A DNA stretch of 64,000 nt. Origin: Streptomyces sp. NBC_01463. Lineage in GTDB: Bacteria; Actinomycetota; Actinomycetes; Streptomycetales; Streptomycetaceae. The stretch is taken from the NCBI GenBank assembly GCA_036227345.1, contig CP109468.1, forward strand, positions 8,184,001 through 8,248,000. The letters are read 5' to 3'. Positions 18,326-33,691 of the stretch are shown here, one piece after another. The notes below the pieces were generated by a model. The model ran no database searches, had not been told where the DNA came from, and saw nothing but the letters and a program-made list of their open reading frames with translations. Position 1 is the first letter of the stretch, and each line of letters starts with the position of its first letter. The position numbers were made by a program, and so were the translations under genes.

Positions 18326-18332
18326 CGGACGC

Positions 18333-18363
18333 GCGGGACCGGGTCACGCGGACCCGGTCCCGC
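18333..18363 (+). terminator. Intra-operon hairpin between binding protein and permeases
   Basis: GCGGGACCGGGTC and GACCCGGTCCCGC form a perfect 13-bp stem with a five-base loop, eight bases after the stop codon. Such hairpins after binding-protein genes usually lower read-through or protect the upstream mRNA, so that more binding protein than permease is made. Confidence 0.6.
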
Positions 18364-18417
18364 ATTCCGGCCCCGTCCGACTACTGCGCTTCAGTTCACC
18401 GGCACATAGGAGACACC

Positions 18418-19377
18418 ATGTCGGCCCCTACCCTGTCCTCCCACAAGGCGACCAGGCCTCGTCCAGGACATTCAGGCCCGGCTCGCCGGGACTCCGCCCG
18501 CGAGGAGTTCCTGCGTGCCGTGCGCCGCAACATCTCAGCCCACGGCTTCCTCATCGGAGCGGTGCTCTGCTTCTCCTTCTTCTCCTGGTACCCGATGGTC
18601 AGGGAATTCATCCTGGCCTTCCAGAAGACCGAGGACGGCAAGACCACCTGGGCCGGCTGGTCCAACCTGACCTACGTCTTCAACGACCCGGCGTTCTGGC
18701 AGGCCTGGCGCAACACCGTCCTGTTCACCGTGCTCGCGCTGCTGCTCGGCTTCGTCGTCCCGTTCGTCGTCGCCGTCGTGCTCAACGAGTTCCGGCACGG
18801 ACAGGGCTATCTGCGCCTGCTCGTCTACCTCCCCGTGATGCTGCCGCCGGTCGCCTCCGTACTGCTCTTCAAGTACTTCTACGACCCCGGGTACGGCCTC
18901 TTCAACCGCATCCTGGAGATCTTCCACCTGCCCGCACAGCAGTGGCTCCAGGACACCGACACCGCCATGCTCTCGGTCGTCATCGCGGCGACCTGGATGA
19001 ACATGGGCGGCGCCACCCTGATCTACCTGGCCGCGCTCCAGGGCATCCCCGGAGAGCTGTACGAGGCGGCGGAGCTGGACGGCGCGGGGCTGCTGCGCAA
19101 GGTCTGGCACGTCACCATCCCGCAGACCCGGCTCATCCTCTCGCTGCTCCTGCTCATGCAGGTCATCGCGACGATGCAGGTCTTCACCGAGCCGTTCCTG
19201 CTCACCAACGGCGCCGGCCCGGAGGGTTCCACCACCACCGTCGTCTACCTCATCTACCAGTACGCCTTCAACTTCAACAACTACGGCAGCGCGGCGGCAC
19301 TCGGCCTCGTCCTGCTCGTCGTCCTCGCGGGATTCTCCGCGGTGTACGTACGACTGAGCCGCAGCAGCGAAGACTAG
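18418..19377 (+). CDS. Sugar ABC transporter permease (MalF-like)
   Basis: This 319-residue inner-membrane subunit forms half of the sugar channel. About six transmembrane helices are visible, beginning at FLIGAVLCFSFFSWYPMVREFILAF. The cytoplasmic EAA loop YEAAELDGAGLLRKVWHVTIP, which docks on the ATPase, lies near residue 220. The N-terminal 40 residues are Arg/Ser-rich and cytoplasmic. GGAG lies ten bases before the ATG. It is followed 15 bp later by the second permease, and the three transport genes form one unit with the upstream binding protein. Confidence 0.93.
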   Translation: MSAPTLSSHKATRPRPGHSGPARRDSAREEFLRAVRRNISAHGFLIGAVLCFSFFSWYPMVREFILAFQKTEDGKTTWAGWSNLTYVFNDPAFWQAWRNTVLFTVLALLLGFVVPFVVAVVLNEFRHGQGYLRLLVYLPVMLPPVASVLLFKYFYDPGYGLFNRILEIFHLPAQQWLQDTDTAMLSVVIAATWMNMGGATLIYLAALQGIPGELYEAAELDGAGLLRKVWHVTIPQTRLILSLLLLMQVIATMQVFTEPFLLTNGAGPEGSTTTVVYLIYQYAFNFNNYGSAAALGLVLLVVLAGFSAVYVRLSRSSED

Positions 19378-19392
19378 GACGGGAGCACGACC

Positions 19393-20352
19393 ATGGCATC
19401 GAACACGCTAGTCTCCCGGCGCGGGAGCGAGGGGCGCAGAGCGGAACGGCGCAGGGCCGGACGCGCGGCCGCCCTCGGGCGCCAGCGGACCCTCATCTCA
19501 CCGGCCCAGCTCGGCCGGCCCCGCGGCAAGGCCTTCTACTGGATCGTCTTCGCCCTGGTGATCATCCTCTTCACGGTGGTCTTCCTCGGGCCGCTGTACT
19601 GGATGGTCACCGGCGGACTCAAGACCACCCAGGAAGTCGTGCAGAGCCCGCCCACGGCCTTCCCCAGCTCGCTCCACACGGAGAACTACAGCCAGGCCTG
19701 GACCGTGATGGACCTGTCCAAGCTGCTGTTCAACACCCTGTACTACGCCTTCGGCGCGCTCGCCTTCCAGCTGGTCTTCGACGTCGCGGCCGCCTACTCG
19801 CTGTCCAAGCTGCGGCCGGTCTTCGGCAAGGTCATCCTCGGCATGATGCTGGCCACCCTGATGATCCCGGCCACCGTGCTCGTCGTACCCCAGTACCTCA
19901 CGGTCCTGGACGTCCCGATCTTCCAGCGCAACCTCGTCAACTCGCCCTGGGCGATCTGGCTCCCGTCGGTCACCAACGCCTTCAACATCTTCCTGCTGAA
20001 GCGGTTCTTCGACTCCATCCCACGTGAGCTCCTGGACGCCGCGGCCATCGACGGAGCGTCGCCCCTGCGCACGCTGCGCTCGATCGTCCTGCCGATCTCC
20101 CGGCCGATCCTCGGCGTCGTCTCCATCTTCGCCGTCGTGGGGGTGTGGAAGGACTTCCTCTGGCCGATGCTCACGCTGCCCGACCCGAGCAAGCAGACGC
20201 TCAACGTGGGCATCTACTCACTGGCCAGCGGCGTACCGGAGAACGTCCTCATCGCGGCGCTCACCATCGCGTCCATCCCGACGCTGCTCATCTTCCTGCT
20301 CTTCCAGCGCAACATCATGAACGGTCTGACCGCGGGCGGCCTCAAGGGGTAA
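19393..20352 (+). CDS. Sugar ABC transporter permease (MalG-like)
   Basis: This is the second channel subunit, also 319 residues, with six helices starting at FYWIVFALVIILFTVVFLGPLYWMVTGGLK. The EAA motif reads LLDAAAIDGASPLRTLRSIVLPISRP. The Lys-Thr-containing loop after helix 1 and the C-terminal FLLFQRNIMNGLTAGGLKG are typical of MalG-type subunits. GGGAG lies before the ATG. The next gene, a cytoplasmic glucosidase, starts 139 bp downstream behind a long inverted repeat. Confidence 0.93.
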   Translation: MASNTLVSRRGSEGRRAERRRAGRAAALGRQRTLISPAQLGRPRGKAFYWIVFALVIILFTVVFLGPLYWMVTGGLKTTQEVVQSPPTAFPSSLHTENYSQAWTVMDLSKLLFNTLYYAFGALAFQLVFDVAAAYSLSKLRPVFGKVILGMMLATLMIPATVLVVPQYLTVLDVPIFQRNLVNSPWAIWLPSVTNAFNIFLLKRFFDSIPRELLDAAAIDGASPLRTLRSIVLPISRPILGVVSIFAVVGVWKDFLWPMLTLPDPSKQTLNVGIYSLASGVPENVLIAALTIASIPTLLIFLLFQRNIMNGLTAGGLKG

Positions 20353-20413
20353 CCCCCCTCCCGGACCGCGCCCCCGCCCGGCCGGGGCCCCGTCCGGCCG
20401 CCTTCCCCTCAGC

Positions 20414-20466
20414 ACTCCGCCGCCGGCTCTCCCATCCTGCCCCGCTCGCCGGGCCGGCGGCGGAGT
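20414..20466 (+). terminator. Long inverted repeat between MalG-like permease and GH13 gene
   Basis: ACTCCGCCGCCGGC (20414-20427) and GCCGGCGGCGGAGT (20453-20466) are perfect 14-bp arms around a 25-base loop, ending 25 bp before the glucosidase start. It may be a partial terminator or attenuator that sets the level of the glucosidase relative to the transporter. Confidence 0.5.
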
Positions 20467-20491
20467 CCCACCTGCCCGAAAGGAACGCCAC

Positions 20492-22117
20492 GTGGCAGCC
20501 AACCGTCCGTCCGAGGCCACCGCGACCTGGTGGCGAGACGCCGCCATCTACCAGATCTATGTACGCAGCTTCGCCGATGGCGACGGTGACGGCACCGGCG
20601 ACCTCGCGGGGGTCCGGGCGAGACTGCCCTATCTCGTCGAACTGGGCGTGGACGCACTCTGGTTCACCCCCTGGTACCTCTCGCCGCTCGCCGACGGCGG
20701 CTACGACGTGGCCGACTACCGCAGCATCGACCCCGCGTTCGGCACCCTCGCCGAAGCCGAGAAGCTGATCGCCGAGGCCCGCGAACTGGGCATCCGCACC
20801 ATCATCGACGTCGTTCCCAACCATGTGTCCGACCAGCACGCCTGGTTCCGGGCCGCCCTCGAAGCCGGCTCCGGCAGCCCCGAGCGCGACCTCTTCCACT
20901 TCCGCACCGGGCGCGGCGCCGACGGCGAGATCCCGCCCAACGACTGGGTCTCCGAATTCGGCGGCACCCCGTGGACCCGGCTGGACGACGGCGAGTGGTA
21001 CCTCCACCTCTTCGCCACCCAGCAGCCCGACCTCAACTGGGCACACCCCGCGGTCCGCCAGGAGCACGAGGACGTCCTGCGCTTCTGGTTCGAGCGCGGC
21101 GTCTCCGGCGTACGGATCGACTCCGCCGCCCTGCTCGCCAAGGACCCCGACCTGCCCGACTTCGTCCACGGCAGCGACCCGCACCCCTTCGTCGACCGCG
21201 ACGAACTGCACGGGATCTACCGCTCCTGGCGGGCGATAGCCGACGAGTACGACGGCATCTTCGTCGGCGAGGTGTGGCTCCCGGACACCGAGCGGTTCGC
21301 CCGCTACCTGCGCCCCGACGAACTGCACACCGCCTTCAACTTCAACTTCCTGGCCTGCCCCTGGGACGCCGCACTGCTGCGCACCGCGATCGACGACACC
21401 CTCGCGGAACACGCCTCGGTAGGCGCGCCGGCCACCTGGGTCCTGTGCAACCACGACGTGACCCGCACCGTCACCCGCTACGGCCGCGCGGAAACCGGCT
21501 TCGACTTCGCCGCGAAGACCTTCGGGACGCCCACGGACCTGGCCCTCGGCACCCGCCGAGCCCGCGCCGCGGCCCTCCTCTCACTGGCCCTGCCCGGCGC
21601 CGCCTACCTCTACCAGGGCGAGGAGCTCGGATTGCCGGAGGCCGACATCCCGCTGGACCGCATCCAGGACCCGATGCACTTCCGCAAGGGCGGCGCCGAC
21701 CCGGGCCGCGACGGCTGCCGGGTCCCGCTGCCCTGGGCGGCGGCGGAACCGTACGCCGGATTCGGGGGCACCGCCGAACCCTGGCTCCCGCAGCCCGACG
21801 GCTGGGCCTCGTACGCCGCCGACCTCCAGGAAGGAGACCCGGACTCGATGCTCAGCCTGTACCGCGAGGCCCTGCGGCTGCGCCGCACCGAGCCGGGCTT
21901 CGAAACGGCGGGGGAGCCCGGGATCGACCGGCTGGCCTGGCTGGACGCCGCGCCCGGCGTGCTCGCCTTCACCCGCACCGACGGACTCGTCTGCGTCGTC
22001 AACCTGGCCGCCGAGGCCGCCGCCCTGCCCCCGCACACCGCGGTCCTCCTCACCAGTGGCCCCCTCGACGACGCGGGGAGGCTGCCGCAGGACACCGCGG
22101 TCTGGCTGCGCGCCTGA
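20492..22117 (+). CDS. GH13 alpha-glucosidase (cytoplasmic)
   Basis: The 541-residue enzyme hydrolyses short alpha-linked gluco-oligosaccharides. The four GH13 regions are in order: DVVPNHVSDQH, GVRIDSAALLAK (nucleophile Asp), FVGEVW (acid/base Glu) and CNHDVTR (transition-state Asp). No signal peptide is present, so it works on imported sugar. The start GTG 20492 has AAAGGAA seven to eight bases upstream. Length and the early IYQIYVRSFADGDGDGTGDLAGV pattern fit oligo-1,6-/alpha-glucosidases rather than alpha-amylases. Because the operon begins with a likely alpha-1,3-glucanase and a sugar importer, the substrate may be nigerose-type oligosaccharides. That is inference; GH13 specificity cannot be read from these motifs alone. 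Confidence 0.92.
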   Translation: MAANRPSEATATWWRDAAIYQIYVRSFADGDGDGTGDLAGVRARLPYLVELGVDALWFTPWYLSPLADGGYDVADYRSIDPAFGTLAEAEKLIAEARELGIRTIIDVVPNHVSDQHAWFRAALEAGSGSPERDLFHFRTGRGADGEIPPNDWVSEFGGTPWTRLDDGEWYLHLFATQQPDLNWAHPAVRQEHEDVLRFWFERGVSGVRIDSAALLAKDPDLPDFVHGSDPHPFVDRDELHGIYRSWRAIADEYDGIFVGEVWLPDTERFARYLRPDELHTAFNFNFLACPWDAALLRTAIDDTLAEHASVGAPATWVLCNHDVTRTVTRYGRAETGFDFAAKTFGTPTDLALGTRRARAAALLSLALPGAAYLYQGEELGLPEADIPLDRIQDPMHFRKGGADPGRDGCRVPLPWAAAEPYAGFGGTAEPWLPQPDGWASYAADLQEGDPDSMLSLYREALRLRRTEPGFETAGEPGIDRLAWLDAAPGVLAFTRTDGLVCVVNLAAEAAALPPHTAVLLTSGPLDDAGRLPQDTAVWLRA

Positions 22118-22148
22118 CCGGCGGACCCGGGACGCACCTGTGGACGGA

Positions 22149-22175
22149 CCCGGCCGTGCGTGACGCACGGCCGGG
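22149..22175 (+). terminator. Hairpin terminator after the alpha-glucan locus
   Basis: CCCGGCCGTGCG and CGCACGGCCGGG form a perfect 12-bp stem with the loop TGA, 32 bp after the glucosidase stop codon. It probably ends the transport/glucosidase transcript. Confidence 0.7.
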
Positions 22176-22221
22176 CCCGGCAGGATCGCGGGGGAACGAG
22201 GGCTGCGGCACAGTGGGGCAT

Positions 22222-22548
22222 ATGGACGCTCCGAACGATCTGAATGCCCTGGCCGACGAGCACCTGGCCGCGGCCCGCACCTCCCCGCACGGCCGCAGCG
22301 CCCACCTCCTCCTGCACGAGGAGCCGCTGCGCCAGACCGTCATCGCGCTGGCCTCGGGCCGCGCACTCGACGAGCACAACGCCCCGCCCGCCGCCTCCCT
22401 CCAGGTGCTGCGCGGCACGGTCCGGCTCACCGCCGACTCCGGCGACGTGGAACTCGCGGCCGGACAGCTGTACCCGATCCCGCAGGAGCGGCACGGGCTG
22501 CTCGCCCTGGAGGACGCCGCGGTGCTGCTGACCGCCGTCAACGGCTGA
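22222..22548 (+). CDS. Small cupin-domain protein
   Basis: A 108-residue single cupin barrel. The segment ASLQVLRGTVRLTADSGDVELAAGQLYPIPQERHGLLALEDAAVLLTAVNG matches the second half of a cupin, with the motif-2-like P-x-x-x-x-H (PIPQERHG) providing one possible metal His. The first motif lacks the usual paired His residues (DEHNAPPAASLQV has only one), so metal binding is uncertain. The function is unknown; small cupins of this type are often stress or sugar-related. The ATG at 22222 is preceded by GGGG. It sits after the locus terminator and is probably its own transcript. Confidence 0.7.
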   Translation: MDAPNDLNALADEHLAAARTSPHGRSAHLLLHEEPLRQTVIALASGRALDEHNAPPAASLQVLRGTVRLTADSGDVELAAGQLYPIPQERHGLLALEDAAVLLTAVNG

Positions 22549-22599
22549 CGGCCCGGCCGGCCGGGGTGCGCGGCGGTGACCTCTTTGCCGCGCCGTCTT

Positions 22600-22615
22600 G
22601 TGGGAGCGCTCTCAC
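22600..22615. promoter_or_regulatory. CebR-like operator upstream of GNAT gene
   Basis: GTGGGAGCGCTCTCAC is a near-perfect palindrome. Its inner TGGGAGCGCTCTCA differs at one base from TGGGAGCGCTCCCA, the known operator of the Streptomyces cello-oligosaccharide repressor CebR (LacI family). It lies 19-34 bp before the GTG start of the acetyltransferase gene, over the expected core promoter. Confidence 0.6.
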
Positions 22616-22633
22616 GGTCGGCAGGATGAGCCG

Positions 22634-23260
22634 GTGACCCTGCTTCCCGGCCCACGGGCCTATCACCCGGACGACCGTGCCGCCCTCGCCGACATCTGCG
22701 TCCGCACGGCCGACAACGGCGGCGACTCCCGGCACCTGTACCCGGACCACGAGCTGATGCCGGCGATCTTCGCCGCGCCCTACGCCCACCTCGAACCCGG
22801 CCTGGCCTTCGTCCTCGACGACGGGACCGGCCGGGCGGTCGGTTACATCCTCGGCACCGCCGACACCCCGCGGTTCGTGACGGAGTTCCGCACCCGCTGG
22901 CTGCCGCTGGTCGAGGACCGCTACCCGCGGCCGGACGGGCCGCCGCGCAGTCCCAGCGACGAGATGATCGGCCTCCTGCACCACCCGGAGCGGATGATCC
23001 TGCCCGAACTCGCGGACCACCCGGCCCACTTGCACATCGACCTGCTGCCCGACTGGCAGCGCAGGGGGTACGGGAGGGAGCTGATGCGCACCTTCCTCGC
23101 GGCCCTGAACGCCGAGGGTGTCAAGGGCGTTCACCTGTCCATGCTCACCGCCAACACCCCGGCCAGGGCCTTCTACGACCGGCTCGGCTTCACGGAGATC
23201 ACGGTCCCCGACCCCGGACCCGTCACCTACCTGGTGCGCTCCACGGAGGCGGACCTGTAG
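22634..23260 (+). CDS. GNAT family N-acetyltransferase
   Basis: The 208-residue protein has the GNAT acetyl-CoA loop in HLHIDLLPDWQRRGYGRELMRTFLAAL (R-x-x-G-x-G/A pattern) and a C-terminal ANTPARAFYDRLGFTEI strand-helix. The first half (DDRAALADICVRTADNGGDSRHLYPDHELMPAIFAAPY) resembles the acetyltransferase-like domain found attached to O-GlcNAcases and in small actinobacterial relatives. The substrate is unknown. GTG 22634 is preferred, with AGGA about seven bases upstream; an ATG 36 bp upstream would place the CebR-like box inside the gene. Confidence 0.8.
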   Translation: MTLLPGPRAYHPDDRAALADICVRTADNGGDSRHLYPDHELMPAIFAAPYAHLEPGLAFVLDDGTGRAVGYILGTADTPRFVTEFRTRWLPLVEDRYPRPDGPPRSPSDEMIGLLHHPERMILPELADHPAHLHIDLLPDWQRRGYGRELMRTFLAALNAEGVKGVHLSMLTANTPARAFYDRLGFTEITVPDPGPVTYLVRSTEADL

Positions 23261-23361
23261 CCCGTCGCCGGCACCGGGGGTGCCGCGCGGTCCCGCTGGG
23301 CAGGTAGTCCTGGACGAGACCGTGACGGGGGGCGGACAGCCGGTGGTGAGAGGTGTATGAC

Positions 23362-24234
23362 GTGAGTGAGCCGACCGTGTGGCAATTCTCCGACGACCGC
23401 GGACAGGTGTCGACCGCCGGGCAGCGCCCGGAGCGGGTGCTCGCCTATGTCCAGGCCGGTGCGACGTTATGGGATCACGGCATCCGCCCGAGCGCGATAT
23501 TCGGCTCCGGGCACGACGATCCGGTGGTGCCGGACGTGGCGAAGACCGGTTCGCTGCCCCTGGACGGGACCGCGTACGTCGGGGCGGGCCCCGCGCTGGA
23601 CGTGGACACCCTGCTGAGGGGTGAGCCGGACCTCGTGGTGGCCGTCAGCTACGGCGGCGGTCAGGTCTACGGGCTCGACCCGGAGACCGCCAAACATCTG
23701 GAGGGGCACGTCCCGGTCGTCGTCATCGACGTCGGCCAGGCGCGCACCCTCGCCGAGATCGGTGACCGCTTCGCCGGGCTGGCGCGCTCCCTCGGCGCCG
23801 AGGAGCCCGCGGCGGCCACGCGGGAACTGGACGCCGCCCGCGACCGGTTGCGTGCCCTCACCGCGGGGCCCGGCCCCACGAGGGTCCTGGCCCTGTCCCT
23901 GGCCGGCCAGGAGGAGACGCACCTGGCCCGCCCCCGCATGTGGCCGGAACTGCGGGTGCTGGCCGAGCTCGGCGTCGGCCTGGTGGAACCCGCCGACGGG
24001 CCGGGGGCCAACTGGTCCACGGTCGGCTGGGGCCAGGCCGCGGCCCTGCGCCCGGCCGTGGTGCTCGCCGACATCCGGGCCAACGCCACCCCGCTGGACG
24101 AGCTCCGCGGCAACGAGCACTGGGCGTCGGTCGAGCGCTCCGCGCGCGTGGTGCCGTGGAACCCCGAGCCGGTGTGCAGCGCCCGGGCCCATGCGCGGTT
24201 CCTCGGCCTGGTGGCCGACGCGCTGGAGGCGTAG
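23362..24234 (+). CDS. FecB-like periplasmic-binding-protein fold without signal peptide; contains a TTA codon
   Basis: The 290-residue product has the helical-backbone binding-protein fold of siderophore/cobalamin receptors: QRPERVLAYVQAGATLWDHGIRP, then EPDLVVAVSYGGG and a long spacer helix, and a C-terminal lobe ending VLADIRANATPL...VVPWNPEP. It has no signal peptide or lipobox, so it is predicted to be cytoplasmic, or exported by another route. The start GTG 23362 has GGTGAGAGG eight bases upstream; another GTG nine bases earlier overlaps that site. Codon 36 is TTA (23467-23469), the only in-frame TTA I found in the window, so translation would need the bldA tRNA. No permease genes adjoin it, which is unusual for an importer component. 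Confidence 0.7.
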   Translation: MSEPTVWQFSDDRGQVSTAGQRPERVLAYVQAGATLWDHGIRPSAIFGSGHDDPVVPDVAKTGSLPLDGTAYVGAGPALDVDTLLRGEPDLVVAVSYGGGQVYGLDPETAKHLEGHVPVVVIDVGQARTLAEIGDRFAGLARSLGAEEPAAATRELDAARDRLRALTAGPGPTRVLALSLAGQEETHLARPRMWPELRVLAELGVGLVEPADGPGANWSTVGWGQAAALRPAVVLADIRANATPLDELRGNEHWASVERSARVVPWNPEPVCSARAHARFLGLVADALEA

Positions 24235-24363
24235 CGCCCGGCCGGGTGCGAGCGGTGCCCGCCTGACATGCGGCAGGATCGGAACTCCATGTGTCCGCGG
24301 GCCGTTCGCGCACCTCGACGGCGGCTGCGTACACGTCACCGCACTCCAGGAGAGCTCACGCCC

Positions 24364-25296
24364 ATGCTCGACAGACTCGACCTGCTGGTCATCGGTGAAT
24401 GTGTCGCCGACATCGTCCGGCTGCCGGGTGCGGCCGACCGGGTCCACCCGGGCGGCAGCCCGGCCAACGTCGCGTACGGCCTGGCCAGACTCGGGCACGG
24501 CGCGACCCTCCTCACCCAGCTCGGTGCGGACGGGAACGGGCGGCTGATCCGGGACCACCTGACCGGCGCCGGGGTCGACGTCCGTACGGACGGCTCCACC
24601 GCGCCCACCCCGTCCGCCGCCGTGACGCTGGACGGGGCGGGCCGGGCCACGTACAGGTTCGAGATCGCCTGGACGCTCGGCCCGGTCGCCCTGGAGCGGG
24701 CGCCCGCCCACGTGCACACCGGATCGATCGCCGCGGTGACGGAACCCGGTGCGGCCACGGTCCTCGCCGCCGTCGAATCGCTGCGGTCCGCCGCGACGGT
24801 CAGCTACGACCCCAATGTGCGGCCGGAGCTGATGGGGGAACACGAGGCCGCCGTGCGCAGGGTCGAGCTCTGTGTGGCGCTCAGCGATGTCGTCAAGGCG
24901 AGTGACGAGGACCTGGAGTGGCTGTATCCGGGCCAGGATCCCGCGAAGGTCGCGGAGCGGTGGCGGGCCACCGGCCCGGCCGTCGTCCTCGTCACCCGGG
25001 GCGGGGACGGCGCCTTCGCCGTCCTGCCCGACGGGCAGGTGGCCGTCGAGGCGCTGCCGGTCGAGACGGCCGACACGGTGGGAGCGGGGGACGCCTTCAT
25101 GTCCGGCACCCTGCACGCGCTCGCCGCCCACGGGCTGCTCGGGCCGGCCGGCCGGGAGCGGCTGCGGTCACTGGACCGGGCCACCGTGGCCGACGTCCTG
25201 CGGCACGCGGCGGCATCAGCGGCCGTGACCGTGTCCCGGGCCGGTGCCAGCCCTCCCGACGGACCGGAACTCGCGGCCGCACTCGGCCGGGGCTGA
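24364..25296 (+). CDS. PfkB family carbohydrate kinase (fructokinase-like)
   Basis: The 310-residue enzyme phosphorylates a sugar or nucleoside with ATP. The N-terminal LLVIGECVADIVR and the first PfkB signature GGSPANVAYGLARLGHGATLLTQLGADGNG are intact. The second signature DTVGAGDAFMSGTLHAL carries the catalytic base Asp in GAGD. Length and the NPNVRPEL-like YDPNVRPELM are typical of the fructokinase branch, but specificity is not certain. ATG 24364 follows GGAGAG by ten bases; an earlier in-frame ATG gives an unlikely Arg-rich extension. It ends at two tandem hairpins. Confidence 0.9.
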   Translation: MLDRLDLLVIGECVADIVRLPGAADRVHPGGSPANVAYGLARLGHGATLLTQLGADGNGRLIRDHLTGAGVDVRTDGSTAPTPSAAVTLDGAGRATYRFEIAWTLGPVALERAPAHVHTGSIAAVTEPGAATVLAAVESLRSAATVSYDPNVRPELMGEHEAAVRRVELCVALSDVVKASDEDLEWLYPGQDPAKVAERWRATGPAVVLVTRGGDGAFAVLPDGQVAVEALPVETADTVGAGDAFMSGTLHALAAHGLLGPAGRERLRSLDRATVADVLRHAAASAAVTVSRAGASPPDGPELAAALGRG

Positions 25297-25303
25297 ACGC
25301 GGC

Positions 25304-25339
25304 GGTGCCACCGTCACCCCCCACGGGAACGGTGGCACC
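25304..25339. terminator. Bidirectional hairpin between PfkB kinase and subtilase genes
   Basis: GGTGCCACCGT (25304-25314) and ACGGTGGCACC (25329-25339) are perfect 11-bp arms around a 14-base loop, lying between two convergent genes. Confidence 0.75.
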
Positions 25340-25341
25340 AC

Positions 25342-25366
25342 GGACGGCGGCGACCAGCCGCCGTCC
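25342..25366. terminator. Second tandem hairpin, overlapping a third
   Basis: GGACGGCGG and CCGCCGTCC form a perfect 9-bp stem with a seven-base loop. The right arm also pairs with GAGGACGG further right (CCGTCCTC-N5-GAGGACGG at 25360-25380), so two hairpins are mutually exclusive. Confidence 0.6.
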
Positions 25367-25379
25367 TCCGCACGAGGAC

Positions 25380-25412
25380 GGTCTACCAACCGCCCGTTAC
25401 CGAGGCATTACC
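25380..25412 (-). promoter_or_regulatory. SARP-type direct-repeat promoter element, copy 1 (orphan, antisense direction)
   Basis: Read on the minus strand, GGTAA and GGTAA are 11 bp apart (plus-strand TTACC at 25397-25401 and 25408-25412), and the -10-like hexamer TAGACC (25385-25380) follows after exactly ten bases. It sits just past the stop codon of the subtilase and points into the tandem hairpins, not at any gene. Confidence 0.55.
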
Positions 25413-25422
25413 GGCGGCCGGA

Positions 25423-28400
25423 TCAGATAACCGGCACGGCCCGGGGGAGGGCCGAGTCCACGGTATTGCCCTGCCGGTCCTCGGCCGTCACCCGGAAGCC
25501 GAGGAAGCCGCCCTTGACCAGTGCCGTGTGCGGTGCGAGGAAGCGGTACTCGCCGTCGTGCAGCCGCAGGACCAGGACCTGCTTCCAGGTCTTGCCGTTG
25601 TCGGACGTGACCCAGGCACGCACCTTGCTCAGGCCGCCCACCGCGCCCGTGACATCGGCCTTCACGAGAAGGGGAAGCCGGGCACGCGCCTGGTTGAGCT
25701 CGTTCAGCGGTGCGTCGAACGACACGTTGAGGAGGTTCACCGGCGTCGCCGTCTCACCTGTTCCGCCCGCCGTGAAGGTCCACCTGGCGGTCCCCTCCCC
25801 ACCCATCGGGAAGATGCCCGCGGAGGTGAATCCGCGCCGCAGCTCGTACGAGGCCTTTCCGGCGTCCTCGAACGTCTTGTCGATCATCGAGGTCTTGTCG
25901 GCGACGAGTGTGCCGTTGCGGTAGAGCTGCGTGGTGGCCTGGAAGCGCTGCGGAATGTTGAAGTCGGTGTACTCGCCGACGAGTCCCTTCGGATTGACGT
26001 TGTCGTCCAGCCTGAGCTGGAGCCGGGCACCGGTGGCCTGCCCGGTGGCGCGCACGGAGAACGGTCCGGTGAACCAGGTGTCCTGCGTGGAGCTGCCCGG
26101 ACGGTAGGTGTACTGGAGGGGCGCGTAGTCCATCTGCACACCGCTGACGTTGCGGTACGTGAACCGCAGCCAGATCCGGTCCTCGGCCTGGATGTACTCG
26201 GTGCGCTGACGGGGAACGGTCAGGTAGGACGGCGAGGAGACGTTCAGTCCTTCGAGCCCGGTGCCGTAGACCGTGCTGCCCTCCTGGTACCGCAGCTTCT
26301 CGTTCATGCCCCGGTACGTCATGCGGACCTTGGCGAACTTCTTGACCTCGCCGCGCGTCAGCCGCCGCTCGGGGTTGTCGCTGACGTCGTCCTGGGCGTA
26401 GGCCGCGTCGTAGAGGGCCGTCGTGTCGCCCACGGTGATGTCGCTGTCCGCGTCGGCCAGCCGCCAGCGCTCGTTGAACGCGACCTTGCCCAGGTGGGAT
26501 CCGGTCGTCGGGGTGATCCACAGCGCGTCCCGGCCGAAGGCCCCGTAGGCGCCGCCGGCCAGCATGCTGTGCCGGATGCCGAACTGTCCGTCGTCCGTCG
26601 TGCGCGTCAGATTGCCCGCCATGAACTCCGGCCGGGTCTCCTTGCCCTCCATGGACGCCGTCCAGCGGCGCGCCTTGCGGGCGTCGAAGACGATCTCGTC
26701 GGCACCGGGCGCGAGGTCGGCGCTGACGATCGCGATCTGGTACACACCGTCGATGGTCATCGCGATCATGGCCAGACCCATGTACCGGCCCTCCGGGACC
26801 CGGAGGTCACGGGTTCCCTCCGCCCGGACCTCCGCGTTCAGCGCGGCACCGTTGTCCGCGTTGAGGAGGGAGATCTGGGCGGCCGCCGGCTTGCCCGCGC
26901 GGTCGAGCGTGGTGACCTTGAGGGTCTGCGCCCGGTCCAGCAGCAACGGGATGCGCAGCTCCTGGCCGCCGCCGGACGGCACGGCCGTCAGACCGCCGAT
27001 GTACGTACCGGTCGGGGTGCCCGCCGTGTCGACGGTCAGGGTCACATCGGTGGACTCGCCCGCCGCCAGGGTGACCACGGAGGCCGACAGCTTCAGCAGA
27101 CCGGCGGGCGGGGTCGAACCCGTCGCCGCCAGCGAGCCCTTGAGGGCGAGGGTGACCGGGGCGTCCGCCGTGTTGGTGAGCTTCACGGTACGGGTCGCGG
27201 TGCCGTCCGACACGTCGAGCCGGCCGAAGTCCACGGCGCCGGTGTCGGCCACCACGGACTGCTTCAGCGCCGCGGGGAGGTTCACCACGCCGGTGCCGAC
27301 GTCATACATCGTCTGACCGGCCTGCGGGGCCGTCGTGGTGCCCATCAGGGTGTGCTTCAGCTGGTCGGCGGTCCAGTCGGGGTGCTCCTGGGCCAGGTCG
27401 ACGGCGGCGCCCGTGATGTGCGGGGCGGCCATCGACGTACCGCTCAGCGCGGTGTAGGCGGGATCGGCCTGCGGCGTCCCGATGTTCGTACCCGTGGCGC
27501 GTGCCGCCACGACGTTGACACCGGGGGCGGCGATCTCCGGCTTCACCGTGCCGTTCATCGACGGTCCGCGGCTGGAGAACGAGGCGGTGCCGCCGGCGAA
27601 GTCCACCGCGGCGACGGACAGGGCGTGCGGGGCGATCGATGGCGCGGACACCGTGCCGATGTTCGGCCCGGTGTTGCCCGCCGACACGACGAACAGCGTG
27701 CCGGATGAGGTGGCCAGTGCCTCCAGCGACTGGGTGACCGGGTCCATGCCGTTCGTCGGGCCGCTGCCCAGCGACATGTTGACGACCTTCGCGCCCTGCG
27801 CGACGGCCCACTCCATCCCGGCGATGACCTGCGAGTCGGAACCGGAACCGTCGTCGCCGAGCACCTTGCCGACGATCAGGTCCGCGTCCGGGGCGACACC
27901 CGAGCGCACTCCCGGCGCACCGGCCCCGCTGCCCGCGACGGTCGCCGCCACATGGGTGCCGTGGCCCACCTTGTCGAGCGTGTTGCCGGTGCCCGAGAAG
28001 TCCTTGGACTCACTGATCCGGCCCACGAGGTCGGCGTGTGTCCGGTCCGCGCCGGTGTCCAGCACGGCCACCTTCACGCCCTTGCCCGTCCGGCCGGACT
28101 GCCAGGCCGTGTCGGCGCCTATCTGCGTGAGGTTGCGGTCCAGGGCGTCGGCGTGGACCCTGCCGTCGAGCCAGATGCTCTGCACGCCCTCGATCGCGCC
28201 CTTGGCACCCAGGGCGTCACCGACCTCGGACGCGTCGTCCTTGTCCAGCACCGCCGTGCTGGCCCTCAGCGAGCGGAAGTCCCGCTTGGCGGGCAGCAGT
28301 CCGCCGGCGGTCAGGGCCTGCGGCCGGGCGGCACCGGTCCGCCGCACGATCAGCGGGAGCGATCCGACGCGGGCGTCGTCGTAGCCGTCGCGGACCAGAC

Positions 28401-28743
28401 CGTCGACGTTGAACAGCTGCGGGTCCAGCACCGAGCCGACCTTGCCGATGACGTCGCTCGGGTAGAAGTACGCGTCGCCGTCGATGTCCGTCCGCATCAG
28501 GACGGTCCCCGGCCGCGAACCGGCCGCCGGAACCGCGCTGTACGACTTCCTGCCGTCCGGGGTGGTGGTGACCGTCACCCGGTCACCCGTGATGAGCGTG
28601 ACGGTCCGGTGCCCGGCCTTTCCCGAGGCGTTCGACGAGGGCACGGACACGGGGCCTGCGGCCGCCGACGGCACGAGCGTCGGTGAGCACAGTGCGGCGA
28701 CGGCGAGTGCCGCCACGATTCTGGCGCGGGCGAGAGGTCTCAT
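25423..28743 (-). CDS. Secreted subtilisin-like serine peptidase, S8 family (1106 aa)
   Basis: A Sec signal peptide (to about residue 29, PSAAAG) and a long propeptide region precede the catalytic domain. The triad is D229 (AVLDTGAD), H261 (GHGTHVA) and S436 (SGTSMAAP), with oxyanion N356 (SAGNTG). The domain spans about 215-480. The remaining 620 residues hold beta-rich domains that probably bind substrate or surface, similar to other 1100-residue streptomycete subtilases. The enzyme should act outside the cell on proteins. ATG 28743 overlaps the stop of the small TusA-like gene (ATGA), and GGAG lies five bases before it, so the two are translated together. Likely control is by the SARP-type regulator upstream, through the repeat element at 29124-29156. 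Confidence 0.93.
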   Translation of the reverse strand: MRPLARARIVAALAVAALCSPTLVPSAAAGPVSVPSSNASGKAGHRTVTLITGDRVTVTTTPDGRKSYSAVPAAGSRPGTVLMRTDIDGDAYFYPSDVIGKVGSVLDPQLFNVDGLVRDGYDDARVGSLPLIVRRTGAARPQALTAGGLLPAKRDFRSLRASTAVLDKDDASEVGDALGAKGAIEGVQSIWLDGRVHADALDRNLTQIGADTAWQSGRTGKGVKVAVLDTGADRTHADLVGRISESKDFSGTGNTLDKVGHGTHVAATVAGSGAGAPGVRSGVAPDADLIVGKVLGDDGSGSDSQVIAGMEWAVAQGAKVVNMSLGSGPTNGMDPVTQSLEALATSSGTLFVVSAGNTGPNIGTVSAPSIAPHALSVAAVDFAGGTASFSSRGPSMNGTVKPEIAAPGVNVVAARATGTNIGTPQADPAYTALSGTSMAAPHITGAAVDLAQEHPDWTADQLKHTLMGTTTAPQAGQTMYDVGTGVVNLPAALKQSVVADTGAVDFGRLDVSDGTATRTVKLTNTADAPVTLALKGSLAATGSTPPAGLLKLSASVVTLAAGESTDVTLTVDTAGTPTGTYIGGLTAVPSGGGQELRIPLLLDRAQTLKVTTLDRAGKPAAAQISLLNADNGAALNAEVRAEGTRDLRVPEGRYMGLAMIAMTIDGVYQIAIVSADLAPGADEIVFDARKARRWTASMEGKETRPEFMAGNLTRTTDDGQFGIRHSMLAGGAYGAFGRDALWITPTTGSHLGKVAFNERWRLADADSDITVGDTTALYDAAYAQDDVSDNPERRLTRGEVKKFAKVRMTYRGMNEKLRYQEGSTVYGTGLEGLNVSSPSYLTVPRQRTEYIQAEDRIWLRFTYRNVSGVQMDYAPLQYTYRPGSSTQDTWFTGPFSVRATGQATGARLQLRLDDNVNPKGLVGEYTDFNIPQRFQATTQLYRNGTLVADKTSMIDKTFEDAGKASYELRRGFTSAGIFPMGGEGTARWTFTAGGTGETATPVNLLNVSFDAPLNELNQARARLPLLVKADVTGAVGGLSKVRAWVTSDNGKTWKQVLVLRLHDGEYRFLAPHTALVKGGFLGFRVTAEDRQGNTVDSALPRAVPVI

Positions 28744-29060
28744 GAGGACTCCGGGTTCTGGAGGGGGGACGGATGCGGCGTGCCCGGCGCGGGGGACGGC
28801 AGCGCGATGCGGTAAGCACTGCGCTCGCCCGTCGCCTCCTCGCCGAGGAGCCTGGAGCCGGTGAGCCGGCACCAGGCGTGCAGCGAGGCCCGGACCAGGG
28901 GATTGGCGCTGTGCAGTTCCAGGACACTGCCCGCCGGCAGGTCACGGCAGCGCCGCTCCAGCAGTCCGAGGATCCGGTCCCACGGTTCGCCGCCCGCGTC
29001 GACGACGGCACGGACCGCGTCGTCCGGGCCTGGCGATGCGGGCAACGAGACAGCACACAT
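28740..29060 (-). CDS. TusA-like small protein lacking the catalytic cysteine
   Basis: This 106-residue protein has the beta-alpha-beta-alpha-beta-beta layout of TusA/SirA proteins: AVVDAGGEPWDRILGLLERRCRDLPAGSVLELHSANPLVRASLHAWCRLTGSRLLGEE. In true TusA sulfur carriers the N-terminal loop reads C-P-x-P; here the equivalent reads E-P-W-D, so the sulfur-carrying Cys is missing. Two other cysteines are present in helices. It may be a regulatory or partner protein rather than a sulfur relay enzyme. The ATG at 29060 follows GGAAG by eight bases. Its stop overlaps the subtilase start, and a regulator-type direct repeat lies about 65-95 bp upstream. Confidence 0.7.
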   Translation of the reverse strand: MCAVSLPASPGPDDAVRAVVDAGGEPWDRILGLLERRCRDLPAGSVLELHSANPLVRASLHAWCRLTGSRLLGEEATGERSAYRIALPSPAPGTPHPSPLQNPESS

Positions 29061-29123
29061 GGGCGGTTCTTCCTCGACGGGAGACACGGGCACGCACACC
29101 CCGGGGTTCCGGGACTGGCCAGG

Positions 29124-29156
29124 ACGGTAGGCAGGTGCTGTTACCCGGGCATTACC
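29124..29156 (-). promoter_or_regulatory. SARP-type direct-repeat promoter element, copy 2 (TusA-like/subtilase operon)
   Basis: On the minus strand GGTAA-TGCCCG-GGTAA gives two repeats with an 11-bp period (plus-strand TTACC at 29141-29145 and 29152-29156). TACCGT, matching TAnnnT, follows after exactly ten bases (29129-29124). The predicted leader before the TusA-like gene is about 57 bases. The upstream repeat overlaps the stop region of the regulator gene. Confidence 0.65.
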
Positions 29157-32100
29157 GCGCCGGCGGTGTGACCCCCCGCGCGGCGCGGACCAGGGCGAGT
29201 TCGTCCGCCAGCCTGCGCATGCCGTCCCGGACCTGCGGGTCCGGCGCCGGTGCCATCGCCTCACCGCACTCCCGCAGCGCCGCCTCCGCCCCGTCGAGCC
29301 GGCCGCGCCTCAACTCGACCTCCGCCAGGCCCACCAACGCGTACGGCAGCGCCCAGGAGGAGCCGAGCGAACGGGCGAGACGGACCGCCGCTGCCGCCAG
29401 TGCGGCAGCCCGCTCGTGGTCGCCCGCGAGCAGTTCGGCACCGGCGAGGTTGCTCCGGTCGAAGGCGAGGACGGTCGGGTCGCCGGTGCGCCGGGCCATC
29501 GACACCGCACGCCGCGCACACTCCCGGGCCGCCTCCCACCTCCCTTCCCTGCGGGCCAGTTCGCCGACGACGGACAGCGCACTGGAGACGAGTGCCGCGT
29601 CGTCGGCGCGCTCGGCCGTGCGCAGCGCCTCTTCGGCGGCCTCGCGGCTCTCGCGGAGGTGCCCGGAGACCAGCAGACAGGCCGCTCGGATCGTGCTCAG
29701 CCGGGACAGGAGCGGCAGCCGGGCGGAGTCCGTCATCCGGGCGGTCTCCAGCTCCGCGCGGTGCAGCGCCGCCATCGCGTCCGGGTAGCGACCCGTCTGG
29801 AAGCCGAGCGCGCCGACGGCCAGGTGCCGGGCCGCCCGGTCGGCCGCGGCCGACCGGCTGTGCACCCGGGCGGAACGCAGCACGTCGAGCCCCTCGACGG
29901 GGCGCCCGGCCCGGCCGAGCACCTCGGCCAGGCAGGTCGCGGCGCGCAGCGCCGCCGGATGACCGCCGTCGCGTACGAGCTCCGCCAGGGCCCGCCGCAG
30001 CACCTCCTCCGCCTCCGGATAGCGGGCGGCGCGCCGCAGTACCTCACCCCAGGCGAGGCGGGCCTCGGCGGCAGCCGTCGGGTCCGCCGGTTCGAGCTGC
30101 GCGACCAGCTCCCGGTAGTAGTCGCAGGCGCTGTCATTGGCGAACAGGGCGGCGGCCCGGTCGGCGGCCGCGCGCAGGAAACCGGGCGCGCGCACATCAC
30201 CGGCGACCGTGAGATGGAAGGCGATCATGTCCACCGCTTCGGGGCGCAGCCGCAGCACCGTGTCCGCGTACGCCTGGTGGAGCCGCCGCCGCGCCGCCCG
30301 GCTCAGCCCGTCCGCGCACGCCAGCCGCACCAGCGGATGGCGGAAGGCGTGGCCGAGCACCGGCCGGCCCCCGACGACGACGTCACGTTCCTCCACGATC
30401 CCGGACAGGGCCGCGGTGTCGAGCGCCGCCGTGACGGCCGCCGCGTCCACCGGCGGATGCAGTCCGCCGGCCGCGACGGCCTCCAGTTCGGTGAGCGGCA
30501 CGGCCGCCCCGCCCGCCACGGACAGTGCGGCGAGGACGCGCCGCGCCTGTGCGGGGAGCCGGGCGAGCCGGCCGCCGACCAGCCGGCGGATGCTGTCCGG
30601 CACGGCGTCCCCGGCCGGTTCGGCGGTCGTGCCGCGCCACGGTCCCATCCGTTCCAGGTCGGGCTCGGGACTGCTGGTCAGCTCGATCGCGAACAGCGGG
30701 TTCCCGAGGGACAGGCGGAAGATGCGGGAACCGGTGCGCGGGCCCTTCGCCCCGGCCGCCGCCGCGAGCGCCGCGCAGTCGGCGCGGCTCAGACGCAGGA
30801 GGTCGATCTCCACGGCCATCCGCTGCCGCAGGATGCCGTCGAGTATCTGCCGTCGTGCGTCGTCGGGTTCCAGGCCGTCGTCACGGAAGGTGGCGATGAA
30901 CCGCCACCGCCTGGCCTGGGTGGTCCGCACCAGGTGATGGAGCAGCCCGAGCGAGCCGGGGTCGGCCGCGTGCAGGTCGTCCAGCACGACCAGGACGGGC
31001 CGGGACGCCGCGAGGTCGGTGAGTACCCCGGCGACGGCACGGAACAGCCGGGCGCGTTCCTCCTCCGGGCTGGCGGCGGCGGGCGGTCCGCCGCCCAGGG
31101 ACGGCAACAGGGCGGCGAGCCCGATGTGTTCGGCACTCACCCGGGACCGCTCCTCGGCGTCGCACCCGGCCAGATGCCCGTCGAGCGCGTCCGCGAACAC
31201 CCCGTACGGGGTCTGCCCCTCGGCCTCGTGGCCGGTACCCCACAGCACGCACACGCCCTGTGCTGCCGCACGCCGGGCCGCCTCCGCGACCAGCCGCGTC
31301 TTGCCGATGCCCGCCTCGCCGCGCACCACGACGAACGGGGCGCCGTCCCCGGCCGCCGTCGCGTGTCCGGTGAGCAGGTCCAGTGGCCGCTCCCGGCCGA
31401 ACAGCGGGAACCGTTCGGGCCTGCGGATGGCGGGCGGCAGGGCGGCGGGCTCCGCTGTCCGCCGGGACGGCGGCGGGGCACCCAGGGCGTCCAGCGCCGC
31501 CAGCGCCGTGCGGTGCAGCGCCTCCAGCTCGGCCCCCGGCCGCACACCCAACTCGTCGTCCAGCGCCTCGCGGCAGGCGTGGTACTGGCGGATGGCCTGG
31601 CGCGGCCGGCCCAGATCGCACCAGATGCGGGCCAGCAGCAGATGGAGGATCTCGTCGGCGGGGGAGCGGTCCACCGCACGGCGCAGGACGGCCACCGCGT
31701 CATCGGTGCGGTCCGACGCCAACAGCCGCCCGGCCAGGGCCGGTACGAGCTGTTCGCGCAGCACCTCCAGCCGGCGGCGTCGTTCGCCGGCCCACTCGGC
31801 GAACCGGTCCTCGGGCAGCAGCTCCCGCTCCAGCGGGGCGAGCGCCGCCCCGAGCGCGTCGGCGTCCCGGGTGACGAGCGCGGCACGGGCGGCGTCCTCC
31901 GCCTCGTCCGCGTCGACGCGGACCCGTTCCGGTGACAGGAACAGCAGATGGCCTTCGGCCACCAGGTAGGAGGACGGGGCCCGCGGTGCCAGTTCGGGTT
32001 CCAGGGAGTGCCGGGCGGCGTGCAGCGTGACCCGCAGGTTGCGGACCGCCGTCTCCATCGGGGCGTCGGGCCACAGCAGGTCCATCACCTGCTCGCGGTG

Positions 32101-32274
32101 GCGCCGCAGCCCCGGAGCGACGGCGAGCAGCTTGACCAGGGTCCGCGCGGTGCTGCGGCGCCAGCGGCGCGCGATGACCACCCCGTCGTCACGCTCGGCG
32201 GCGAACCCGCCGAGCAGCTGCAGCGACAGCCGCCCCGCGCGCGGCGGTTCCCCCGGTCCGGACATGCCGCACAC
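29152..32274 (-). CDS. AfsR/SARP-type transcriptional activator with BTAD, AAA ATPase and TPR domains
   Basis: This large 1040-residue regulator has four parts. Residues 16-100 form an OmpR-like winged helix (REQVMDLLWPDAPMETAVRNLRVTLHAARHSL). Residues about 110-255 form the bacterial transcriptional activation domain (RRAVDRSPADEILHLLLARIWCDLGRPRQAIRQYHACREALDDELGVRPG). From about 285 to 600 there is an AAA-type ATPase with Walker A GEAGIGKTRL and Walker B VLVVLDDLH. The rest is tetratricopeptide-like helical repeats. Proteins of this family bind 11-bp-spaced direct repeats next to the -10 box and recruit RNA polymerase. Such repeats lie before this gene and before the TusA-like/subtilase operon. 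The start is GTG 32274 or the in-frame ATG nine bases later. No biosynthetic cluster adjoins it, so the protease operon is the likeliest target. Confidence 0.88.
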   Translation of the reverse strand: MCGMSGPGEPPRAGRLSLQLLGGFAAERDDGVVIARRWRRSTARTLVKLLAVAPGLRRHREQVMDLLWPDAPMETAVRNLRVTLHAARHSLEPELAPRAPSSYLVAEGHLLFLSPERVRVDADEAEDAARAALVTRDADALGAALAPLERELLPEDRFAEWAGERRRRLEVLREQLVPALAGRLLASDRTDDAVAVLRRAVDRSPADEILHLLLARIWCDLGRPRQAIRQYHACREALDDELGVRPGAELEALHRTALAALDALGAPPPSRRTAEPAALPPAIRRPERFPLFGRERPLDLLTGHATAAGDGAPFVVVRGEAGIGKTRLVAEAARRAAAQGVCVLWGTGHEAEGQTPYGVFADALDGHLAGCDAEERSRVSAEHIGLAALLPSLGGGPPAAASPEEERARLFRAVAGVLTDLAASRPVLVVLDDLHAADPGSLGLLHHLVRTTQARRWRFIATFRDDGLEPDDARRQILDGILRQRMAVEIDLLRLSRADCAALAAAAGAKGPRTGSRIFRLSLGNPLFAIELTSSPEPDLERMGPWRGTTAEPAGDAVPDSIRRLVGGRLARLPAQARRVLAALSVAGGAAVPLTELEAVAAGGLHPPVDAAAVTAALDTAALSGIVEERDVVVGGRPVLGHAFRHPLVRLACADGLSRAARRRLHQAYADTVLRLRPEAVDMIAFHLTVAGDVRAPGFLRAAADRAAALFANDSACDYYRELVAQLEPADPTAAAEARLAWGEVLRRAARYPEAEEVLRRALAELVRDGGHPAALRAATCLAEVLGRAGRPVEGLDVLRSARVHSRSAAADRAARHLAVGALGFQTGRYPDAMAALHRAELETARMTDSARLPLLSRLSTIRAACLLVSGHLRESREAAEEALRTAERADDAALVSSALSVVGELARREGRWEAARECARRAVSMARRTGDPTVLAFDRSNLAGAELLAGDHERAAALAAAAVRLARSLGSSWALPYALVGLAEVELRRGRLDGAEAALRECGEAMAPAPDPQVRDGMRRLADELALVRAARGVTPPAR

Positions 32275-32305
32275 CCCAGCGATCAGCCGTCATTCGTACG
32301 GGGCC

Positions 32306-32338
32306 GGTATACCCACTCCGCGTTACTGACGCGTTACC
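32306..32338 (-). promoter_or_regulatory. SARP-type direct-repeat promoter element, copy 3 (regulator gene)
   Basis: On the minus strand GGTAA-CGCGTC-AGTAA repeats with an 11-bp period (plus-strand TTACT 32323-32327 and TTACC 32334-32338). The -10-like TATACC (32311-32306) follows after exactly ten bases. It lies about 32 bp before the regulator start, so autoregulation is likely. Confidence 0.6.
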
Positions 32339-32374: not shown

Positions 32375-33691
32375 TCAGGAGCCGCCGATGGACGGCCCGG
32401 CACCCGGCACCGCGAGATGCGGGGTGCTGTCGTCGTCGAGGAACTCGACCACGGCCAGGGCGAACAGGGCGCACAGCGCGATCCACACGGTGACCAGGCC
32501 CGTCGGCCGGTCCCACGCCACCAGCACCGCGACGGCGACCACGACCACCGTCCAGTTCAGCGGACGCCTCGCCCGGTGCACCCACCGGCCGATCGGACCG
32601 CCCGTGAAACCGGCCGCGTCCCGCACGGCGCCGATCCCGCCGCCCCACATCGCCATGACCCGGGTCGCCGCGCGGCCCCGGCCGGTGAGCCAGGCGGCGA
32701 GCGCCACCACCGCGCCCACGGTCACGACCAGCCGTACGCCGGCCCGCACATAGCCGGCCAGGGCGTCGAAGACGGCTCCCGCGGCGGGCTGCGAGACCTC
32801 GGACGGGAGGCTGTCGAGGTAGAAGGCGCGTCCTGCCCAGAGCCCGATCCCGAGCAGCGCGGCGCCCACCGCGACCGCGATCGCCGCGGTGACCAGCGCG
32901 CGCCGGCGGCGTACCGCGAGCAGTACCCCGCCGGCGGCGACCAGCAGCGTGACCACCGGGAGCCAGAAGCCGAGGATCTCCAGGGCCCGGAAGCCCTTCT
33001 TGGCCTTGCCGACCGAGTCCGAGGTCAGCACCGTGAAGTCCGTGTGGATCTCGGGGATCTTGCCGGCGACCGTCAGGCCGCGGTCGACGAGGCGCTGTTT
33101 CACCCGGTCGATGACGGGGGCGAGATCCAGGGTGACGGTGTCGTCGGTCAGTTTCACCGCGCCGCCGCCCTCACCCGTCAGCGCCTTCACGACCGAGGCG
33201 TGGGCCTGCCGGTTCAGATCGCGCCAGAGCCGTTCGAACGCCTCGCTGGTCACGAACCTCTCCACGGTCCCGCGCACGAAGTTCGTGACACCCGTGGTGA
33301 GCGGACCGCCGAGCTTCCCGAGCGCCTTGTCGACGACCGGCCGGTCGGCGGGGGCGACGTCCGCCAGCAGCGCGTCGATGTCCAGACGGGTCATCACGGC
33401 ATCCGTGACCCGGTCGGTCACCGCGTCCTGCACAGCGGGGTCGGAGGCGAGCGGCTCCATCATCGCCACATACCGGTCCGTGTCCCCGGCGACGTCGCTC
33501 GCCCAGCTCGACACGATGCTCAGCGGGGTGAGCACGGCCGCCACCAGGATCAGGACGACCGCGAAGAAGGAACGCGGATGCCGCCGGGGCCGGGCCGGGG
33601 CGCGGGCCTCCAGCTGTGCCACCCGGGCCCGCAGGGCTTCCAGTTCGGTGTGCTCGTCCGGCGCGGCCGGCCGGCCGGGTTCCCGTTCCAT
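32375..33691 (-). CDS. Integral membrane protein of unknown function
   Basis: The 438-residue protein begins with a short coiled-coil segment (TELEALRARVAQLEAR, residues 15-30) and a first transmembrane helix at about 41-63. About 180 extracytoplasmic residues follow, rich in Asp, Thr and Val and organised as helices (DAVTDRVTDAVMTRLDIDALLADVAP, VTLDLAPVIDRVKQRLVDRGL). Two helices lie at about 245-290, with two more near 330-350 and two at the C terminus. The same general plan occurs in many Streptomyces integral membrane proteins of unknown role. Divergent from the acyl-CoA oxidase-like gene. No motif reveals a function. Confidence 0.7.
   Translation of the reverse strand: MEREPGRPAAPDEHTELEALRARVAQLEARAPARPRRHPRSFFAVVLILVAAVLTPLSIVSSWASDVAGDTDRYVAMMEPLASDPAVQDAVTDRVTDAVMTRLDIDALLADVAPADRPVVDKALGKLGGPLTTGVTNFVRGTVERFVTSEAFERLWRDLNRQAHASVVKALTGEGGGAVKLTDDTVTLDLAPVIDRVKQRLVDRGLTVAGKIPEIHTDFTVLTSDSVGKAKKGFRALEILGFWLPVVTLLVAAGGVLLAVRRRRALVTAAIAVAVGAALLGIGLWAGRAFYLDSLPSEVSQPAAGAVFDALAGYVRAGVRLVVTVGAVVALAAWLTGRGRAATRVMAMWGGGIGAVRDAAGFTGGPIGRWVHRARRPLNWTVVVVAVAVLVAWDRPTGLVTVWIALCALFALAVVEFLDDDSTPHLAVPGAGPSIGGS

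Follow-up and report, generated by a model that had tools for sequence, protein, structure and literature searches.

SARPs (Streptomyces antibiotic regulatory proteins) have been studied as activators of antibiotic production. Here we describe a large SARP encoded beside a protease operon in Streptomyces sp. NBC_01463, within a 64,000-nucleotide stretch of contig CP109468.1 (positions 8,184,001 to 8,248,000; referred to here as the window, with coordinates counted from its first base). The genes for the SARP, a TusA-like protein and a secreted subtilase are on the minus strand in the order given by the initial annotation, and three promoter-like elements of common plan lie around them. It is very probable that a regulon of secreted proteases is switched on by a clade of large AfsR-like SARPs, and we place at roughly 0.83 the probability that the window is one node of this regulon, run by the clade through RGTAAY-N5-RGTAAC-N10-TANNNT, the operator and promoter predicted from sequence comparison (the SARP box).

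The closest described system is AfsR of Streptomyces coelicolor, for which cryo-EM structures are available (8hvr, 8jke and 8k60). AfsR binds two 11-bp direct repeats at -40 to -19, with one helix inserted per repeat, and contacts sigma-HrdB and the core polymerase (PMC10936776); its repeat is given as CGTT(T/C)ATCGNN (PMC10972967). The window SARP (29152-32274, minus strand; 1040 aa) is a predicted activator with an N-terminal SARP domain that includes BTAD, followed by an AAA/STAND ATPase and TPR, which is the SARP-NOD-TPR order of AfsR; the ATPase, the TPR and a length of about 1000 residues place it among the large SARPs. Pfam matches are BTAD (1.4e-14), AAA_16 (9e-26) and TPR_12 (4.1e-13), and Trans_reg_C gave no score. 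A family profile aligns to AfsR across the helix-turn-helix (HTH) and BTAD (8k60, E=1.3e-20, profile positions 7-360), consistent with a SARP-family domain; the profile was needed for this match, as a PDB search with the single sequence paired only the TPR part, and that with designed proteins. The window SARP is not an AfsR orthologue, scoring 50.6 bits against NCBIfam NF053617, whose cut-off is 1430. Its closest relatives, among the best 120 of 2358 matches in a protein search, are in Streptomyces and Micromonospora, and its true start may be an ATG nine bases downstream.

A likeness in geometry accompanies a difference in sequence. In both systems a pair of 11-bp direct repeats lies directly ahead of the -10, and the match extends to a T at repeat position 3 (the AfsR contact T-38) and a short gap to the -10 (PMC10936776). 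The repeat itself is CGTT(T/C)ATC for AfsR and RGTAAY here. Among seven aligned members of the window SARP's clade, the HTH tryptophan and R94 of AfsR are retained in all seven; R94, a backbone contact, corresponds to R88 in the window SARP, whereas R81, the counterpart of AfsR R87, is not invariant. The AfsR residues that contact bases, T88 and R92, are replaced by V82 and A86, neither of which varies among the seven. A conserved backbone contact together with changed base contacts fits a common geometry combined with another repeat. The targets differ as well, AfsR acting on afsS and antibiotic genes and the predicted targets here being secreted proteases. The cluster-situated SARPs ActII-ORF4, DnrI, PimR, SanG and PolR share the SARP domain and direct-repeat operators with the system described here, but their described targets are secondary-metabolite clusters (PMC10972967), whereas 31 of the 44 sites reported below precede protease, FG-GAP or SARP genes. 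The usual SARP role at an antibiotic or secondary-metabolite cluster is not seen among the predicted targets, which comprise FG-GAP proteins and regulators as well as secreted proteases, although no cluster prediction was made.

The three elements (25380-25412, 29124-29156 and 32306-32338, all on the minus strand) lie exactly where they were first noted, share the plan then described, and are real and beyond chance. The consensus proposed with them, run as GGTAAYGC-N3-GTAAC, has no match, being one base short; its proper form is GGTAAYGC-N3-RGTAAC. The pattern GGTAAYGCNNNRGTAAC-N10-TA has four exact matches in the 9.07 Mb genome, the three window elements and a fourth that precedes a SARP paralogue (genome 7,116,070-7,119,033; 50% identical to the window SARP) by about 200 bp, and its reversed control has none. 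With up to two mismatches there are seven matches versus one control match, and one of the two-mismatch sites (genome 6,497,370, L034) has neither a SARP nor a subtilase gene nearby. The pattern RGTAAYNNNNNRGTAAC-N10-TA has five exact genome matches, namely the three window elements, one before the SARP paralogue and one before another subtilase, and at up to one mismatch six matches versus two in the reversed control. Two extra matches (L033 and L032) precede further subtilase genes, the start codon in L032 being about 70 bp after the start of the box. The two other subtilase genes preceded by sites in this genome are 4.2 Mb and 0.57 Mb away, the latter site with one mismatch, so the predicted regulon extends beyond a single operon. 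The repeat motif alone, with two mismatches allowed, is not significantly enriched in the window (seven matches versus 3.45 expected, and 10 of 100 shuffles reach seven).

Across 392 genomes of the genus, RGTAAYNNNNNRGTAAC-N10-TA identifies 44 exact sites in 25 genomes, and its reversed control four. The surroundings of all 39 sites outside the source genome were fetched, some ending at contig ends. Thirty-one of the 44 directly precede, on the same strand, a protease, FG-GAP or SARP gene, the first recognised gene being a subtilase (18), a TusA-like gene with a subtilase (six), a large SARP (two), a small SARP (three), an FG-GAP protein (one) or an M4 peptidase followed by a subtilase (one). 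At L121:5286-7961 (minus strand) the box lies before a gene for an M4 thermolysin-family peptidase with the subtilase next, so the targets are not S8 proteases alone. The order subtilase, FG-GAP, SARP occurs at many loci of the genus, and the order subtilase, second large protein, SARP is present in L049, L051 and L056, the second protein in L051 being an FG-GAP protein.

A position weight matrix was built from the 31 linked sites, with repeat positions, spacing and the TA set by the search pattern. Outside the pattern, 30 of 31 sites carry a T as the last of the six -10 bases, and a C ahead of the first repeat and a G behind the second (26/31 each) were likewise not selected for. When the matrix is applied to 13 loci fetched by SARP protein alone, every one contains a best site of 23-51 bits, which precedes a subtilase or TusA-like gene in 12; in the thirteenth (L047, which ends at a contig end) it precedes a small SARP. 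The L046-L048 sites are also in the training set, and genomes G221, G292 and G265 are probably the same as those of L046, L047 and L048. Six of the 13 loci are outside Streptomyces (Agromyces, Krasilnikoviella, Cellulosimicrobium, Isoptericola and two Microbacterium), and the box precedes a subtilase in all six. The reversed sequence of 977 kb of partly overlapping loci has no match at 13 bits. The 11-bp direct repeats beside a -10 that characterize SARP-family operators are thus predicted here too, and the protein-fetched loci show the same spacing.

The sites also co-occur with the SARP clade. In a sample of 61 of the 392 genomes, searched with the paralogue at a threshold of E<=1e-60, the clade is present in 19/19 genomes with an RGTAAT-type site versus 2/36 without a site (Fisher p ~7e-13), or in 19/25 when all genomes with sites are counted (p ~9e-9). 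The six site-containing genomes that lack the clade are exactly those having only RGTAAC-type sites, none of them linked to proteases; in one of the six, G023 (L035, L002), a match to the window SARP (1.8e-43) is interrupted by a stop codon. Of the two genomes scored as having the clade and no site, G329 has a TGTAAT variant site of 37 bits (L137), and G293 has a SARP match with an internal stop (G293:C119:9960-11330).

The remaining 13 of the 44 sites comprise six of the RGTAAC type, one of the window elements, three associated with hairpins, and those at L099:17002, L104 and L100. We regard the six RGTAAC-type sites (L092, L097, L107, L117, L118 and L125) as chance matches, as they are unlinked to proteases, score 16-21 bits and lie in genomes without a SARP at E<=1e-60; they are still counted among the 44. 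The L100 site (20.7 bits) is probably chance as well. The L099 site adjoins a divergent subtilase that has its own box, and the L104 site precedes an HTH regulator assigned by Pfam (L104:6942-7952, minus strand; 336 aa). Weak boxes at L120:8084 and L122:8084 (both plus strand), divergent from the TusA-like/subtilase operon, precede a similar-looking 336-aa protein. A box of 29.7 bits at L109:9296 (minus strand) has downstream of it the gene for a small protein (about 116 aa) that looks secreted.

Of the three window elements, only that at 29124-29156 is typical and conserved. It has the structure GGTAATGCCCGGGTAAC-N10-TACCGT, with two RGTAAY repeats at 11-bp spacing, ten bases and the hexamer TACCGT, and is the predicted SARP-box promoter of the TusA-like/subtilase operon. 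The first TAA of the element doubles as the SARP stop codon. The element is kept in the relatives L045, L046 and L048, equivalents precede TusA-like genes in L095, L120 and L122, and it scores 44.6 bits as a member of the training set and 43.0 when left out. The element at 32306-32338, GGTAACGCGTCAGTAAC-N10-TATACC, is a putative autoregulatory site upstream of the SARP gene, of the RGTAAC subtype and with a weak -10. Its repeats recur in three of five relatives (L045, L121 and, less well, L047; not L046 or L048), and near the SARP start codon another TANNNT-like element looks better conserved among relatives than its hexamer. The third element (25380-25412, GGTAATGCCTCGGTAAC-N10-TAGACC) is an orphan situated between the convergent ends of the subtilase gene and a PfkB kinase gene (24268-25296, plus strand). 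Being downstream of the subtilase stop (25423) and aimed into the 3' end of the PfkB gene, it is upstream of none of the three named genes, and it faces no gene on the minus strand. It scores 31.3 bits, or 26.6 once sites of the source genome are left out, and is absent from L045, L046 and L048. The repeats accompany orthologous genes clearly for the middle element, partly for the SARP-upstream element and not, in these three relatives, for the orphan, whose reading as a promoter of the protease operon is not supported. A tie between SARP-type promoter elements and a protease operon is strongly supported by the recurrence of the site and its co-occurrence with the clade; autoregulation is less well supported, given the poor 32306 site. 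We note also, immediately upstream of the SARP gene, an open frame of 438 aa (32375-33691, minus strand), for which there is no Pfam or NCBIfam match.

The observed distribution, spacing and conservation of the sites and their co-occurrence with the clade suggest a plausible scenario. Two SARP protomers would sit next to each other, one on each of the 11-bp direct repeats. As solved for AfsR, they would keep RNA polymerase with sigma-HrdB at a promoter in which a -10 is present and a good -35 is lacking, thereby activating transcription. The targets would be secreted S8 subtilases, either alone, after a TusA-fold gene, or in one operon with an FG-GAP protein and a SARP, and further an M4 peptidase and regulators including the SARPs themselves. 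In NBC_01463 the window SARP, its paralogue or both would drive the TusA-like/subtilase operon, two more subtilase loci and probably the SARP genes, in response to a signal that the STAND/TPR half may sense.

Three other explanations were considered. The one that survives best, which we consider improbable, is that the boxes are used by the paralogue or by a small SARP, which would leave the window SARP as a co-regulated target or a relic. This would fit the weakness of the site before the window SARP gene, the strength of the paralogue's own site (43.6 bits, 41.5 leave-one-out) and the boxes that precede small SARPs in L093, L098 and L121. However, the window SARP has its full length, its Walker A motif (GEAGIGKT at residue 319) is intact, its gene adjoins TusA-like and subtilase genes also in L045, L046 and L048, and it shares its recognition-helix residues with the paralogue. 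There is less still to recommend a second explanation, in which another regulator of 11-bp direct repeats, such as PhoP or AfsR, binds the repeats and the SARP is a mere neighbour. The reverse strand of the box (GTTACC...) bears what we take to be a loose resemblance to the PHO box. PhoP and AfsR are reported to share direct-repeat sites at afsS (PMC10972967), yet AfsR homologues are described in all tested Streptomyces (PMC10972967) whereas the RGTAAT-type boxes track the SARP clade; the AfsR repeat differs from the box, and two sites in the source genome precede SARP genes of the clade. Some loci (L045-L048) are clearly homologous by descent, but that the sequence is a functionless repeat, arisen by chance or copied along with the genes, can hardly be right, as spacers and flanks vary around constant repeats, spacing and an unselected -10 T, and the site precedes unrelated genes (S8, M4, FG-GAP, SARP and HTH regulator).

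Several observations weigh against a protease regulon run by the clade through this box. The AfsR base-contact residues are replaced in the window SARP, so recognition differs in detail. The 32306-32338 element scores just 4.5 bits leave-one-out versus 41.5-43.0 for the other three source-genome sites tested, and its ten-base-spaced -10 hexamer is not conserved among relatives. A strict scan across the class (394 genomes) gave seven matches and two control matches; the four within the genus are all linked, whereas none of the three outside it is, and the case outside Streptomyces therefore rests on the loci fetched by protein similarity. The co-occurrence counts come from the 61 sampled genomes, scoring covered only 18 or 50-55 first-look candidates per genome, the division into RGTAAT and RGTAAC types was chosen after the data had been seen, and, since Streptomyces genomes are related, the counts are not fully independent.

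If the regulon is as predicted, the SARP family gains a second role, in extracellular proteolysis, through a clade of large SARPs with a readable operator. Among the literature titles and abstract openings listed, none concerns a SARP controlling proteases, a weak negative as most subscription journals lie outside the search. The word 'protease' is absent from the main text of a 2024 review of SARPs in secondary metabolism (PMC10972967), and PMC3992018 mentions subtilase once, for a protease inhibitor listed in an expression table. The specificity of DNA recognition by SARPs would become testable in a system with AfsR-like architecture and geometry and with other base-contact residues and another repeat. 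The box allows candidate target promoters to be listed from sequence alone, and the target set is small, which would help in identifying the signal sensed by the STAND/TPR half of a large SARP.

The two genes downstream of the middle element overlap, the 3' end of the TusA-like gene (28740-29060, minus strand; 106 aa) covering the start codon of the subtilase gene. The TusA-like protein matches the TusA profile below threshold (positions 19-66). Its predicted structure (mean pLDDT 77) has the beta-alpha-beta-alpha-beta-beta fold of the TusA/SirA family, and of all PDB entries it is closest to 3lvj_C, E. coli TusA (TM 0.82 by target length). The CPxP motif is missing, and GGEPW stands at its place in 16/16 aligned proteins (the window protein and 15 of 16 database matches); the Pfam TusA matches begin beyond this position. 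In TusA the CPxP motif contains the catalytic cysteine, and persulfide carriage as in TusA is accordingly not expected. The name TusA-like is thus apt for the fold and not for the motif. The subtilase (25423-28743, minus strand; 1106 aa) is a secreted S8 protease by its Pfam match (PF00082, E=1.1e-57), its signal peptide-like N-terminus and an Asp-His-Ser set of motifs (DTG at 229, HGTH at 261 and GTSMA at 435).

The orphan element is directly followed by two hairpins (25300-25372, minus strand), recognised by folding and by comparison with L045. The promoter-distal hairpin (GGTGCCACCGT...ACGGTGGCACC) is the PfkB/subtilase terminator and is present in L045 too, and the proximal one (GGACGGCGGC-TGGTC-GCCGCCGTCC), like the orphan site, is missing from L045. 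Strong boxes (38-49 bits) with no evident gene after them occur at L094:10627-10720 (plus), L102:8118-8215 (plus) and L115:7930-8029 (minus), each 1.8-5 kb downstream of a clade SARP gene and on the same strand. A hairpin lies about 65 bp from the start of each box, with a C-rich loop, TCATCCCCCGTGAC, identical in all three, one of which has different neighbours. With one mismatch allowed, the loop and 3' stem together match exactly three places in the 392 genomes, namely these loci. It is a tentative and rather doubtful suggestion from these sequences that transcription of a small non-coding hairpin RNA is also under the control of the protease SARP. The C-rich loop of such an RNA could base-pair with Shine-Dalgarno sequences and so adjust how strongly the proteases are translated, and the orphan box with its hairpins may be a diverged version of this arrangement. 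The hairpins of L102 and L115 come immediately after the stop codon of a subtilase gene in convergent orientation, which makes a terminator the plain alternative, and in L094 the frame of an opposite-strand transporter-like protein continues through the hairpin. Generally stronger folding after orphan sites is unconvincing (means of -33.5 for orphan, -26.6 for linked and -25.6 for chance sites), so the small RNA idea rests on the shared loop.

On the far side of the orphan element, the plus-strand genes at 16835-25296 are apparently unrelated to the protease operon. Those before PfkB include a glycoside-hydrolase-like enzyme (20492-22117), the best NCBIfam matches being below cut-off.

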